Shown here piece by piece: positions 58,261 through 64,000 of a stretch of DNA of 64,000 nt; the stretch's first letter is position 1, and the number at the start of each line of letters is the position of its first letter. The position numbers and the translations under genes are program-made. The notes beneath the pieces are model-generated. The model had not been told where the DNA came from. It saw only the letters and a program-made list of their open reading frames with translations, and ran no database searches. The stretch is taken from the NCBI GenBank assembly GCA_016124335.1, contig WGNX01000003.1:256747-320746 (forward strand), given 5' to 3'. This DNA is from Alphaproteobacteria bacterium (lineage in GTDB: Bacteria > Pseudomonadota > Alphaproteobacteria > CACIAM-22H2).

Positions 58261-58491
58261 TCAGCCGGCCTTGCGGATTTCGAAGACGAAGACGCCGTCG
58301 GCTTCGGTCGAACTGACGAGCGTGACATCGCCGGCCCGGCAGAACGCCTCGAAATCGCGCGAGGCGCCGGGGTCCGTGGCCAGCACGCGCAGCGTCCCGC
58401 CCGGTGCGACGGTCCCCAGCGCCTTTCGCGCACGCAGGACCGGCAGCGGGCAGTTCAGGCCCTTGACGTCGAGTGTGGTGATATTGCTCAT
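58261..58491 (-). CDS. TusA/SirA-like sulfur carrier
   Basis: A 76-residue protein with the TusA motif GLNCPLPVLRARKAL, where C14 in the CPxP signature would carry persulfide sulfur, and the beta-alpha end SSTEADGVFVFEIRKAG. It faces the YeeE/YedE gene across 56 bases, the usual partnership (YeeD/YeeE) for thiosulfate-derived sulfur. Confidence 0.88.
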   Translation of the reverse strand: MSNITTLDVKGLNCPLPVLRARKALGTVAPGGTLRVLATDPGASRDFEAFCRAGDVTLVSSTEADGVFVFEIRKAG

Positions 58492-58511: not shown

Positions 58512-58540
58512 TTGTCGCGCAATCCGGGCAAGCTTACATT
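58512..58540 (+). promoter_or_regulatory. Leaderless-type promoter of the YeeE/YedE gene
   Basis: TTGTCG (58512-58517), a 17-base spacer, TACATT (58535-58540), then 7 bases to ATG 58548. No Shine-Dalgarno sequence is seen. Confidence 0.5.
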
Positions 58541-58547
58541 GCGCGCC

Positions 58548-59648
58548 ATGCTTGACCTGCCTGCATACCAGACCGTCGCCTGGCTCGGCTTTGCCGCCGG
58601 CCTCGCCTTTGGCGCCATCGCCCAGCGCACCAATTTCTGCACGATGGGGGCACTTTCCGACGTCCTCTATATGGGCAGCTTCGTGCGCCTGCGCATGTGG
58701 TTGCTGGCCATGGCCGTCGCCATCGCGGGCAGTCAGGCCCTGGCCGCCACCGATCTCGTCGATCTCGGCGGATCGATCTATCTGGCGCCGTCGTTGGGCT
58801 GGCTCGGCGCGATTTTGGGCGGGCTGCTCTTCGGCTTCGGCATGACCATCGCGGGCGGTTGCGGCAACCGCAACCTCGTCCGCCTCGGGGCGGGAAACCT
58901 CAAGAGTCTGGTCGTTCTCCTCGTGCTCGGCTTCTTTGCGTACATGACGCTGCGTGGCCTCACCGGTGCACTGCGCGTTGCCGTGATCGAGCCGGCGGCG
59001 ATCGATCTGCGCCGCTTCGGCTTCGAAACGCAGGGCCTGCCCGCGTTCCTTTCGGCGGCAGGCATCGGTCCGGCAACCGCGCGCGCCGTGGTGGCATTCG
59101 CCGCAGTCGCGACCCTTCTGGCCTATTGCCTTTCAGATCCGGAATTCCGCGCCCGGCCGGCGGCGATCGGCGGCGGCGTCGGGATCGGCGCATTGATTGT
59201 CGCGGGCTGGGCGATCACGGGCATTGCGGGTGCCGACGATTTCGAGCCCACGCCGATCGCCTCCTTCACGTTCATCGCGCCGACGGGCGACGCGCTCGTT
59301 TACGCAATGACCTGGACGGGTGCGAGGATGAATTTCGGCATTGCCACGGTGCTGGGCGTCATCGTCGGCGCCTTCTTGGCAGCCAAGGCATCAGGCGAAT
59401 TCCGCATCGAGGCGTTCTCGGACGTCGCCGACATGAAGCGCCATCTTGGCGGTGCCGCATTGATGGGCATCGGCGGTGTCACGGCGCTGGGCTGCACGAT
59501 CGGCCAGGGACTGACGGGGATCTCGACGCTGGCCGCCGGCTCGGTCATCGCCGTGCTCGCGATCTGCGTGGGCGGTTACGCCGGCTTCAAGTATCTCGAG
59601 GAAGGCACACTTGTCGGGGCGCTTCGGGCGATTGCAGAGCGGACATGA
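58548..59648 (+). CDS. YeeE/YedE family sulfur-compound transporter
   Basis: A 366-residue membrane protein with about nine hydrophobic segments. The conserved cysteines of thiosulfate channels are seen in RTNFCTMGALSD, IAGGCGNRNLVR and ALGCTIGQGLTG. By analogy with TsuA/YeeE it imports thiosulfate or a related sulfur species, handing sulfur to the divergent TusA-like protein. The gene overlaps the Nudix start by ATGA. Confidence 0.86.
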   Translation: MLDLPAYQTVAWLGFAAGLAFGAIAQRTNFCTMGALSDVLYMGSFVRLRMWLLAMAVAIAGSQALAATDLVDLGGSIYLAPSLGWLGAILGGLLFGFGMTIAGGCGNRNLVRLGAGNLKSLVVLLVLGFFAYMTLRGLTGALRVAVIEPAAIDLRRFGFETQGLPAFLSAAGIGPATARAVVAFAAVATLLAYCLSDPEFRARPAAIGGGVGIGALIVAGWAITGIAGADDFEPTPIASFTFIAPTGDALVYAMTWTGARMNFGIATVLGVIVGAFLAAKASGEFRIEAFSDVADMKRHLGGAALMGIGGVTALGCTIGQGLTGISTLAAGSVIAVLAICVGGYAGFKYLEEGTLVGALRAIAERT

Positions 59649-60034
59649 GCGGGCGGCGCTTTCCGGTTTCGATCAAGGGGGTCGTATCGATCGACGGGAA
59701 GTTCTGCCTTCTGAAAAACGAACGGCACGAATGGGAACTGCCCGGCGGCCGGCTCGAACCGGGCGAGACGCCGGAAGCCGCGTGCGTGCGTGAAATCGCC
59801 GAAGAACTAGGGATCGAGGCGCGCATCGAGCGCATCCTCGATACCTGGGTCTACGACATCATTGGGGCGGGTGAAGTGCTGATCGTCACCTACGCCTGCG
59901 CGCCGCTGACGGGCGCCATCCCGAGGCTGAGCGACGAACACAAGGCCTTGGGCCTGTTCGGACCGACGGAAATCGGCAGCCTGAACATGCCCGTCGGCTA
60001 CAAGCGTTCGCTCGCAGCGTACGGCACGCGCTAA
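59645..60034 (+). CDS. Nudix hydrolase
   Basis: A 129-residue Nudix protein with the complete box GGRLEPGETPEAACVREI followed by AEELGI near residues 35-58. Start 59645 overlaps the YeeE/YedE stop (ATGA). It would hydrolyse a nucleoside-diphosphate-linked compound. The link to sulfur genes is positional only. Its stop shares 4 bases with the convergent binding-protein gene. Confidence 0.88.
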   Translation: MSGRRFPVSIKGVVSIDGKFCLLKNERHEWELPGGRLEPGETPEAACVREIAEELGIEARIERILDTWVYDIIGAGEVLIVTYACAPLTGAIPRLSDEHKALGLFGPTEIGSLNMPVGYKRSLAAYGTR

Positions 60035-61053
60035 GGAACGAGCTTGCGCTCGGCCGGCGGTGGCAGGAACTTGTCGGTGTAGACATCCTCCGGCTTCACC
60101 TTGCCGGCCACGCCATAGGCTTCCGCGACGGTGGCGATCGATTTTGCAAGCCGGTCGGCGGGAACGGCCGACAGGCCGTTCTTCTTCACGTTGTCAGTCA
60201 ACATCGTCATGTCGCGGACCATCTCGAAGCGTTCAAGCTCGATCGCCTCGTTGAACAGCGGATCGCGCTTCTTGAGCTGGGCCATGCCCGTCTTCGGGTC
60301 GGCCAGCGCATCGCGGATGCCGGCGATGGTCGCACGGATGAAGCGGCGCACCGTATCCGGGTTCCTGGCGGCATAGTCCTGGCTGACGATCAGCGCCGAG
60401 CCGAGCAGGTCCACGCCGTATTCGTTGTAGCGATAGACCGTCAGATCAGAGGGCGCCACGCCCGCCATCTTGATGTTGAACACGCTTGTCGAGATGAACC
60501 CGGTCACGCCGTCGACCTGTTTCTGGACAAGCAGCGTCTCGCGCAGCTGCGGCGTGACGTTCTGCCAGGCGATCTTCGCAAGATCGATGCCCTGCGCACG
60601 CGCGAAAGCCGGGAAGAGCATGCGGCCGGCATCCGCTTCGGGTGCGGCCAGTTTCTTGCCTTCGATGCCCTTGGGATTGGCGACCGTGCCCTTGCGCAAA
60701 ATGACCGCTGCAAGCGACTGATCCATCACCAGCAGCACGCCGGTGATCTTGTTCGTGTTGGCCGGGTTGGCGTCGAACGGGATCAGCGTGTTGAGATCGG
60801 CATAGCCGATGTCGTAGGCGCCCGAGGCGACTTTTGTCACCGTGTCGCCGGACCCGAACCCGCGATCCATCGTGACCGCAAGCCCTTCGCGCGCAAAATG
60901 GCCCTTGTCGGCCGCCATCGTGAACACCGCATGATTGCCCTGCAGCGCCCAATCGAGCGCGAATTTTATCGGCTGCTGCGCCTGCGCGCCGACGGACGTG
61001 GCCGCGAGCAGGGTTGCGGCGCAGGCGGCTGCGCGCACGACGAAACGGTTCAT
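60031..61053 (-). CDS. ABC substrate-binding protein, NMT1/THI5-like
   Basis: A 340-residue periplasmic protein with a signal peptide (MNRFVVRAAACAATLLAATS to AQAQ), then IKFALDWALQGNHAVFTMAADKG, the family entry of NMT1/THI5/SsuA binding proteins for thiamine precursor, taurine or sulfonates. No cognate permease or ATPase is in the window, so it is an orphan component. Nearby sulfur genes and the flavin monooxygenase hint at a sulfonate, which is inference only. Confidence 0.82.
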   Translation of the reverse strand: MNRFVVRAAACAATLLAATSVGAQAQQPIKFALDWALQGNHAVFTMAADKGHFAREGLAVTMDRGFGSGDTVTKVASGAYDIGYADLNTLIPFDANPANTNKITGVLLVMDQSLAAVILRKGTVANPKGIEGKKLAAPEADAGRMLFPAFARAQGIDLAKIAWQNVTPQLRETLLVQKQVDGVTGFISTSVFNIKMAGVAPSDLTVYRYNEYGVDLLGSALIVSQDYAARNPDTVRRFIRATIAGIRDALADPKTGMAQLKKRDPLFNEAIELERFEMVRDMTMLTDNVKKNGLSAVPADRLAKSIATVAEAYGVAGKVKPEDVYTDKFLPPPAERKLVP

Positions 61054-61143: not shown

Positions 61144-61332
61144 TTACAGGCGCGGCATCGCCGACGAGCCAAGGCTCGCCAGCATGTTCGTCTGTGCGTC
61201 GATCAAACCGACAGAGGCACTCGACGGGCGCAGGATGTTATGGACCATCCGCTCGACCTTCGAGCACGCCGTGGCGCATTCGAGCTTTTCGCTCGGCTGA
61301 CGGTCGGTCGTGCACAGGTTGCGGCAGGCCAT
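61144..61332 (-). CDS. Twin-CX3C cysteine mini-protein
   Basis: A 62-residue peptide, MACRNLCTTDRQ onward, with cysteines at 3, 7, 19 and 23, i.e. two CX3C pairs separated by 11 residues. A helix-like middle (KVERMVHNILRP) and a polar tail follow. A strong ribosome-binding site (aaaggag, 7 bases before ATG 61332) and an FNR-type box upstream make it a convincing gene. No family recognised. The cysteines could bind an Fe-S cluster or a metal, or form two disulfides. Confidence 0.62.
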   Translation of the reverse strand: MACRNLCTTDRQPSEKLECATACSKVERMVHNILRPSSASVGLIDAQTNMLASLGSSAMPRL

Positions 61333-61382
61333 GGGGGGCTCCTTTGATGCGTACAGTCTCGCATCACCCCGAGCAACGAACT

Positions 61383-61396
61383 TTGATCCAGATCAA
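61383..61396 (-). promoter_or_regulatory. FNR/ANR/FixK-type box
   Basis: TTGATCCAGATCAA is a perfect TTGAT-N4-ATCAA dyad, the consensus of oxygen-sensing Crp/Fnr regulators. Its centre is about 57 bases before the mini-protein ATG. If the site sits at -41.5, transcription starts about 16 bases before the codon. A very AT-rich stretch (61406-61428) immediately upstream could act as an UP element. No Fnr gene is in the window. Confidence 0.7.
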
Positions 61397-61433: not shown

Positions 61434-62483
61434 TTAAGCGAGAATTTGTGTCGGCGCGATACGCGGCTCGGTGAAATGCGGGAGCACGCGCGCACCAATC
61501 AGCTCGCACGCAGCAAGCAACTGCGCCTGTGCCACGTCGCCACCGCCAAGCATCATCGAAACGCGCGTCAGGCCGCTTGCGGCCAGCCGCTCGAGATGGC
61601 GCAGCAGATCGTCCGGCGTGCCGACGACGGCAAGCCCCAGCGCTTCAAGCGCGGGCAGCGACATCGGGCGTTCGATCATCGGCACCATCCAGCGCAGGGC
61701 CGCGAGCGAATCCTGGGTCTCGACCTGCGCCTTCACGACCGGAGCCGAGCCTTCAAGGATGTGCCGGAACGCCCAGGCGAGCCCGGGTCCGGCAATGCGG
61801 CGAGCTTCGGCACGGTCCTCGTGAACGAAGGCGCCGATGGTGAAAGCCGTCTGCCCTTGCGGAAAACGCTCGCGATAGCGCTGGAGATTGAGCGACGCGA
61901 TCGGCCATGGCTCGTAAGGGCCGCATTGCGCGTCCATTCCGAGATCGGCGGCAAGATCGAACGTGGGCGTGCTGACGCAGGCCATCCAGCCGCGCACGAG
62001 GCGCGTGTCCGGCAGCGGCGCCACCGGCTCGCGGATACCGAAGCGCTCGACTTCGCCGCGCATCAGGATGTTGCGCAGCTCGCCCAGCCCCTCGATCATC
62101 CGCGTGCGGCCGCCTTCGTAGTCCTGCCCGAATCCCTTGAGTTCGGCCGGCGCGATCCCGCGGCCCACGCACCAGATCGCCCGCCCGCCCGAAAGCATGT
62201 CGAGCGTGGCCAGCCGCTCGGCGATGCGCAGCGGGTCGTGGAGCGGCATCGGGAACATGCCAAGACCGAGTTGCAGCGACTTGGTTTCGCGCGCAAGTGC
62301 CGCAAGAAGCATCTCCGGACACGAGGTTTTCGAGTAGTCGCCCTGGAAATGGTTCTCGGAAATCCACAATCCGGCGAAATCGGCGCGGTCGGCTTGCACG
62401 GCAAGTGCGATCGCATCATCGAATGCGACGCGCGGATCGCGGCCTTGGGGCGTCGCCAGGCTGAGGGTGAGATCGACGAGCAT
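61434..62483 (-). CDS. LLM class flavin-dependent oxidoreductase
   Basis: A 349-residue luciferase-like (TIM-barrel) monooxygenase using reduced flavin. Landmarks are FAGLWISENHFQGDYSK near residue 36, DMLSGGRAIWCVGRGIAP near 95 and VVGTPDDLLRHLERLAASG late. These enzymes oxidise alkanes, sulfonates or other small molecules. The cysteine mini-protein gene and the binding-protein gene follow on the same strand. Confidence 0.86.
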   Translation of the reverse strand: MLVDLTLSLATPQGRDPRVAFDDAIALAVQADRADFAGLWISENHFQGDYSKTSCPEMLLAALARETKSLQLGLGMFPMPLHDPLRIAERLATLDMLSGGRAIWCVGRGIAPAELKGFGQDYEGGRTRMIEGLGELRNILMRGEVERFGIREPVAPLPDTRLVRGWMACVSTPTFDLAADLGMDAQCGPYEPWPIASLNLQRYRERFPQGQTAFTIGAFVHEDRAEARRIAGPGLAWAFRHILEGSAPVVKAQVETQDSLAALRWMVPMIERPMSLPALEALGLAVVGTPDDLLRHLERLAASGLTRVSMMLGGGDVAQAQLLAACELIGARVLPHFTEPRIAPTQILA

Positions 62484-62699: not shown

Positions 62700-63011
62700 A
62701 TGAACGCCCTCGCCTGCATCGCCGCATGCCTGACCGTCCTGCTGGCCGTCGCCGGGCCGGCAGCCGCGCAATCGCTGGCGCCGACGACCGGCCATACGCT
62801 TGCCGCGACCTGCACAAGCTGTCACGGGCCGGGCGGCCGCAGCCCGGGTGCGATGCCGTCGATCAACGGCCGCAGCGAAGCCGAGATCGCGAAGACAATG
62901 CACGAATTCAAGGACGACAGCCGGCCCGCGACCGTGATGAACCGGCATGCCAAGGGATTCAGCGACGGCGAGATCGCGGCGATCGCGAAGGAGGTAGCGT
63001 CATGGCGATGA
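62700..63011 (+). CDS. fccA: Flavocytochrome c sulfide dehydrogenase, cytochrome subunit
   Basis: A 103-residue periplasmic c-type cytochrome. Signal peptide MNALACIAACLTVLLAVAG to AAAQ, heme motif CTSCH with C38, C41 and H42, and a distal Met in ATVMNRH. ATG 62700 has a ggggaag site; ATG 62670 is in frame and could be used by a leaderless mRNA. It overlaps fccB and would accept electrons from its FAD. Confidence 0.83.
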   Translation: MNALACIAACLTVLLAVAGPAAAQSLAPTTGHTLAATCTSCHGPGGRSPGAMPSINGRSEAEIAKTMHEFKDDSRPATVMNRHAKGFSDGEIAAIAKEVASWR

Positions 63012-64000
63012 AGCGACGCACCTTTGTCGGCGCGATTGCCGCGGCCGCAATACTGCCGGCGGTCGCCGTTCGCGCGCAGGCGCCTGCGAAGGCGCGCGTC
63101 GTGGTCATCGGGGGTGGCTTCGGGGGCACCACGGCCGCGAAGTTCCTCCGCCTCGAGGACCCCGGCATCGCGGTCACGCTTGTCGAGCCGAAGGCGGAGT
63201 TCCACACCTGCCCCGCCTCGAACTACGTGATCGGCGGGTTCCGCAAGCTGGCGGATATCGTGCAGGACTATTCCGCGCTGGCCGGCCGGCATGGCGTGCG
63301 CCACGTGCGCGAAGCGGCCGTCGCGATCGATCCGGCATCCAAGACCGTGCGCCTTTCGGGTGGACAGACCCTTGCCTACGACAAGCTCGTGCTTTCACCC
63401 GGCGTGGACATGCGCTGGGGTGACATCGAGGGCTATGACGAAGCGGCATCGGCAACGATGCCGCATGCCTGGCACGCCGGCCCGCAGACCGCACTGCTGC
63501 GCCGCCAGCTCGAGGCGATGCCCGATGGCGGCGTGGTGGCACTTTCGATACCGGGGCTTCCCTATCGCTGCCCGCCTGGCCCGTACGAGCGGATCTCGCT
63601 GATCGCGCACTATCTGAAGATGGCCAAGCCGCGCTCGAAGATCCTTGCGCTCGACGGCAAGGATGCGTTTTCCAAACAGGCGCTGTTCCAGGACGGCTGG
63701 GCCGAACTTTACAAGGACATGATCGAGTGGGTGCCGCTGGGCCAGGACGGCAAGATCGTCGAAGTCGTACCCGGTGAAATGACGCTGGTGAGCGAATTCG
63801 GCCAGCGCCACAAGGCCGCCGTCGCCAACGTGATCCCGCCGCAGTTTGCCGGGAATATCGCGCGCGAGTCCGGCCTTGCCGACAAGGCGGGCCAGTTCGA
63901 AGGCTGGTGCCCGATCGATCCCTTCACGTTCGAATCCACGCTGGCGAAAGATGTCTACGTGATCGGCGACGCCGCCAACGGCGGCGTGATGCCGAAATCG
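63002..64000 (+). CDS. fccB: Flavocytochrome c sulfide dehydrogenase, flavoprotein subunit (partial)
   Basis: The open frame runs off the window end (at least 333 residues). Tat-type leader MKRRTFVG after MA, then VVVIGGGFGG (FAD), C70 in FHTCPASNYVIGGF, the position of the covalent 8-alpha-S-cysteinyl FAD link, and C190 in YRCPPGPYER, a redox-active cysteine position. The family oxidises sulfide to sulfur in the periplasm. An aaggagg site lies 5 bases before ATG 63002; ATG 63008 is an alternative. Confidence 0.88.
   Translation, partial: MAMKRRTFVGAIAAAAILPAVAVRAQAPAKARVVVIGGGFGGTTAAKFLRLEDPGIAVTLVEPKAEFHTCPASNYVIGGFRKLADIVQDYSALAGRHGVRHVREAAVAIDPASKTVRLSGGQTLAYDKLVLSPGVDMRWGDIEGYDEAASATMPHAWHAGPQTALLRRQLEAMPDGGVVALSIPGLPYRCPPGPYERISLIAHYLKMAKPRSKILALDGKDAFSKQALFQDGWAELYKDMIEWVPLGQDGKIVEVVPGEMTLVSEFGQRHKAAVANVIPPQFAGNIARESGLADKAGQFEGWCPIDPFTFESTLAKDVYVIGDAANGGVMPKS

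Follow-up and report, generated by a model that had tools for sequence, protein, structure and literature searches.

The window, by which we mean the whole 64,000-nucleotide stretch of DNA analysed here, belongs to the genus Tagaea (Rhodospirillales, alphaproteobacteria), as given by named loci from the genome collection. Its minus strand carries a short ORF (61332 to 61144) encoding a cysteine mini-protein of 62 residues, MACRNLCTTDRQPSEKLECATACSKVERMVHNILRPSSASVGLIDAQTNMLASLGSSAMPRL. The translation agrees with the product described in a first-pass annotation, which had not named the strand: Cys residues are found at positions 3, 7, 19 and 23, forming a CX3C-X11-CX3C motif, and there are no other cysteines. 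The mini-protein gene and its surroundings are as follows.

58261..58491, minus strand: TusA sulfur carrier (PF01206, E 6e-20), part of the constant neighbourhood
58512..59648, plus strand: YeeE/YedE sulfur transporter (PF04143, E 2e-64), part of the constant neighbourhood
59645..60034, plus strand: NUDIX-type gene between the YeeE and NMT1 genes
60031..61053, minus strand: NMT1/THI5-like substrate-binding protein (PF09084, E 8e-32), downstream neighbour
61144..61332, minus strand: twin-CX3C mini-protein gene (62 aa; Cys 3, 7, 19, 23)
61338..61346, minus strand: Shine-Dalgarno region (AAGGAG) before the mini-protein ATG
61383..61396, no strand assigned: FNR box TTGATCCAGATCAA, whose half sites form a perfect palindrome, 50 nt before the mini-protein ATG
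61434..62483, minus strand: luciferase-like (LLM) flavin monooxygenase (PF00296, E 7e-37), upstream neighbour
62700..63011, plus strand: small cytochrome c beside the sulfide dehydrogenase gene (PF00034/PF13442), part of the constant neighbourhood
63003..64000, plus strand: flavoprotein of flavocytochrome c sulfide dehydrogenase (FCSD), incomplete because the window ends here

The twin motif is rare in this DNA. Among the 529 ORFs of 40 codons or more that the six reading frames of the window contain, two CX3C pairs separated by 8-16 residues occurred in just two, the mini-protein ORF and one long ORF. Because of this rarity and the invariance of the four cysteines in seven homologues, the motif is more than a chance arrangement. 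A Shine-Dalgarno sequence precedes the gene in all seven genomes that carry it, as GGAGCCCCCC in six and as AAGGGGG in G010. Comparison of close pairs gave dN/dS values of about 0.17 (G000/G008) and 0.28 (G009/G006), by which purifying selection acts on the gene; distant pairs were saturated and uninformative, leaving the close pairs alone usable. A non-coding locus, with an ORF arising by chance within an FNR-controlled leader or small RNA, could be argued from the shortness of the ORF and the lack of a Pfam match, but it is very improbable in view of the codon-position pattern, which fits coding in the close pairs, the dN/dS values below 1, the conservation across seven genomes of the start, the cysteines and the Shine-Dalgarno, and an Rfam scan that gave no match. 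Terminator and promoter scans found nothing. Judged from its sequence, the ORF is a real gene.

Homologues of 58-62 residues were found by profile search in 7 of the 11 available Tagaea genomes (G000, which contains the window, and G001, G006, G007, G008, G009 and G010); a first search of relatives had given five. The remaining four genomes (G002, G003, G004 and G005) do not carry the gene. Pairwise identity between homologues goes down to 31%, and the only invariant columns in the seven-row alignment, in which a contig end cuts one row short, are M1, C3, C7, C19, C23, R28, L34 and P36. The first-pass annotation had staked its proposal on homologues keeping the four cysteines, and all four are indeed retained, with a CX3C-X10/11-CX3C spacing in every homologue. 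The job of the mini-protein is thus very probably done by its four thiols. In the trees of YeeE and FCSD, which are unrooted, one branch parts carriers from non-carriers, so a single gain or a single loss of the gene suffices to explain its distribution.

Within the collections searched, the mini-protein is restricted to Tagaea as far as sequence can tell. The other 12 genomes of the host family contained no credible match, the single weak one lying inside a longer ORF that lacks the cysteines. Samples at class, order and phylum level outside Tagaea gave weak local matches only, and those that were read belong to other ORFs, in which the four cysteines are missing; the order-level search covered the 23 genomes of the host family, the class and phylum sampling was partial, and the searches used one genome per species, some of them incomplete. 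Plasmids and viral contigs gave no homologue. A scan of 84,980 species for an FNR box, an ATG and a twin CX3C in fixed layout returned 46 stretches, of which only the mini-protein's own five loci keep its sequence together with a strong Shine-Dalgarno. Most of the other stretches hit a stop before the fourth cysteine, and the few open ones, two Comamonas testosteroni loci among them, have nothing else in common with the mini-protein. Pfam showed no family for the window protein at E up to 1, a sequence-profile search of the PDB found no solved relative, and no paper on a Tagaea twin-CX3C mini-protein was found in the literature.

The genes flanking the locus fall into a constant and a variable part. 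In Tagaea, TusA and YeeE/YedE lie on one side and the small cytochrome c and FCSD on the other, while the interior genes vary; some copies of the region are cut by contig ends. The window FCSD is 70% identical to a protein at locus L023 that matches PF21706 and PF09242. In G000, G007 and G008 the interior consists of NMT1, the mini-protein and LLM, and LLM is found at the mini-protein locus only in this group. In G001, G006, G009 and G010 the mini-protein gene is divergent from a CcdA-related membrane protein around the FNR box; in G001 the gene is divided between the ends of two contigs, one of which also carries FCSD and the other a YeeE-like stretch. In G006 and G009 the counterpart of the window NUDIX gene directly follows the mini-protein gene in convergent orientation. 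Non-carriers G002, G003 and G004 have NMT1 divergent from a shorter CcdA paralogue, and G005 has NMT1 between the same flanks. The first-pass annotation had placed the gene between LLM and NMT1. The positions are correct, but neither gene adjoins the mini-protein gene in the other carrier clade, and a functional operon with either was rejected since both vary among carriers. None of the genes seen adjoining the mini-protein gene is concerned with copper or Fe-S biogenesis, a point against metal binding.

The constant flanks raise the question of a role in sulfur metabolism. The carriers have the mini-protein between TusA/YeeE and cytochrome c/FCSD, and from this location one could argue for a sulfane-sulfur carrier or persulfide buffer working with TusA/YeeE import and FCSD sulfide oxidation. 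Such a role is rather unlikely, as the non-carriers retain the sulfur genes without the mini-protein, and the gene, behind a box of its own, lacks operon linkage. Furthermore, the sulfur carriers that are known have one or two exposed cysteines and not four clustered ones.

The membrane protein that neighbours the gene in the second carrier clade matches CcdA (PDB 5vkv, E 3e-4), with no Pfam match at E 0.1. Compared with the CcdA/DsbD membrane thiol transporters, it keeps aligned LPL..P and FGWTP motifs, but other residues stand in place of both redox cysteines in all Tagaea copies that were read (SPCVLPL to GAAMLPL and WTPC to WTPI; the G005 copy was left out of the extracted set). Copies are located at L023:9320-10012, L024:8818-9510, L025:7912-8604 and L022:7745-8335, and further copies lie between NMT1 and cytochrome c at L077, L079 and L080. 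The divergent arrangement around one FNR box in four genomes, together with the loss of the redox cysteines from a CcdA-like protein, could mean that the mini-protein supplies a CcdA-derived transporter as a soluble thiol or metal shuttle. We consider this partnership improbable because the two genes are found apart in six genomes: G000, G007 and G008 have the mini-protein and no match to the paralogue, and G002-G004 have the shorter paralogue and no mini-protein.

In contrast to the genes around it, the FNR box is a fixed companion of the mini-protein gene. An FNR-type box upstream had been noted before, and it proved to be a perfect palindrome. The palindrome TTGATCYRGATCAA is present 50-73 nt upstream of the ATG in all seven carriers, which places an TTGATNNNNATCAA box at promoter distance as in an FNR regulon, and a TTGAYNNNNRTCAA site was found in none of the four non-carriers (10.6-18 kb stretches of the region read). 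The gene on the opposite side of the box differs between the carrier clades. Because the site occurs in 7/7 carriers and 0/4 non-carriers while the opposite-side gene varies, the box follows the mini-protein gene. In the 2.9 Mb of the window genome that were scanned (about 75% complete), TTGATCNNGATCAA occurs once, at the mini-protein upstream site. A looser pattern gave ten sites and a reversed control pattern nine, so most of the looser sites are chance matches. Two of them precede genes that we called by reading the sequence: L096 (G000:C5:295175-295188) is in front of a gene resembling cytochrome oxidase subunit II, and L097 (G000:C8:51791-51804) lies before an FNR-type regulator gene, which suggests autoregulation of the latter. 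This regulator, encoded on contig C8 of the window genome (HTH_Crp_2, E 1e-20), has an N-terminal CX2CX7C motif and one further cysteine, as expected for the regulator of an FNR regulon. The mini-protein gene would accordingly be one that FNR activates at low oxygen.

The location of the product was read from the sequence of its N-terminus. Every homologue has Cys 3 at its start and lacks a hydrophobic N-terminal segment, in line with the earlier statement that there is no signal peptide and supporting a putative cytoplasmic location. Structure prediction, which had also been proposed, was done with AlphaFold2 for one protein of each carrier clade, using shallow six-row alignments. The two models agree on three helices, a short, a long and a third one, located in the window protein at residues 2-6, 13-34 and 38-55, at low confidence (pLDDT 74 and 75, pTM 0.4). 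In these low-confidence models the four cysteines sit on the first hairpin. Foldseek found no significant match (E 2.4 or worse). Helical hairpins with twin CX3C make up most of the weak structural matches, namely Tk-hefu, the Ara h 1 and Pis v 3 leaders, BWI-2c and Tim9/Tim10, with saposins and dioxygenases also among them. The matches support a predicted hairpin with four clustered cysteines, not kinship.

Because known hairpins with twin CX3C are oxidised, disulfides are the second reading to be weighed: C3-C23 and C7-C19 bonds would lock the hairpin, for structure or as a redox switch, and reduction at low oxygen would alter activity. Twin-CX3C disulfide hairpins dominate the weak matches, although none is significant (best Z 4.1, Foldseek as above). 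We regard this explanation as unlikely, since a protein without export signal is expected to meet a reducing cytoplasm, and a low-oxygen box would have it made in the state that least favours disulfides.

Our preferred reading, to which we assign a probability of roughly 0.4, is that of an FNR-switched cytoplasmic mini-protein whose thiolates bind one soft metal unit in a small carrier or buffer role. When oxygen is low, FNR would switch the gene on. The N-terminal half would fold into the predicted alpha-helical hairpin with a CX3C on each arm, and because cysteines at i and i+4 of a helix face the same side, the four thiols could form one cluster. The reduced cytoplasm at low oxygen would keep these thiols as thiolates, which could bind Cu(I), Zn(II) or an Fe-S cluster, and the small protein may then carry or buffer metal, or carry electrons, in respiration at low oxygen or in sulfur metabolism. 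Metal binding is ranked first because compartment and control favour thiolates and because in the cytosolic protein Csp3 Cu(I) is bound by the two thiolates of a CXXXC pair on a helix (PMC5171941). Counting against the metal reading are the low confidence of the models, the disulfides of twin-CX3C hairpins whose structure is known, and the four Tagaea genomes that do without the mini-protein.

If metal is bound in the cytoplasm, the twin-CX3C hairpin would prove capable of acting as a minimal site for metal in a bacterium, beyond its use as a disulfide-locked eukaryotic fold. The mini-protein is small enough for chemical synthesis. Its gene is also a neat case of one confined to a single genus in which four cysteines and a promoter site responsive to oxygen are conserved more strictly than any other feature. 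Tentatively, and short of even odds, we propose a new bacterial family: a minimal twin-CX3C alpha-hairpin, reduced in the cytoplasm, with a four-thiolate metal or cluster site and made under FNR control at low oxygen.

The first-pass annotation had compared the cysteine spacing with that of the small Tims (Tim8/9/10/12/13) of the mitochondrial intermembrane space. The mini-protein shares with them a small size and a twin CX3C, placed on two helices in the predicted fold, and the likeness in the paired motif stands. Sequence kinship was not found: no member matched a Tim family in Pfam, and no Tim chain was matched by PDB profile, both at E up to 10. The structural likeness is weak. Tim9/Tim10 (2bsk_C) was the top VIA-align match for one low-confidence model, with Z 4.1 and an rmsd of 5.7 Å over 57 residues, Z values of about 4 being common for helical proteins according to the method's own note; the comparison for the second model listed no Tim. 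Unlike the small Tims, the mini-protein is bacterial, lacks an oxidising compartment or Mia40 route and shows no evidence for hexamers. Alphaproteobacteria are the bacterial class related to mitochondria; we nevertheless take the likeness as convergent and not as descent.

Alpha-hairpinins are secreted peptides, and no mini-protein homologue has the hydrophobic N-terminus that secretion would suggest. They have a four-Cys motif CX3C-Xn-CX3C with n of 4-20 in a helix-loop-helix (PMC11591084). The mini-protein, with a spacing of 10-11 and a predicted helix-loop-helix, falls within the motif of the plant alpha-hairpinins and vicilin leader peptides; these are plant disulfide peptides, whereas the mini-protein is putatively cytoplasmic and has an extra predicted C-terminal helix. 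Twin-CX3C hairpins of known structure, both alpha-hairpinins and small Tims, form disulfides and not metal sites (PMC11591084, PMC5203823).

For metal binding there is a parallel with the Csp3 copper storage proteins, which, as predicted for the mini-protein, are all-helical and cytosolic with CXXXC pairs directed toward one core (PMC5171941). Csp3 has 18-19 cysteines in a tetramer of four-helix bundles, compared with four in some 60 residues and no Pfam match for the mini-protein. The Csp copper storage proteins have 13-19 cysteines in a four-helix bundle, and the mini-protein has three predicted helices, which sets it apart from that family. The motif and the hairpin are known from eukaryotes, and the cytoplasmic, FNR-controlled bacterial setting appears to be new.
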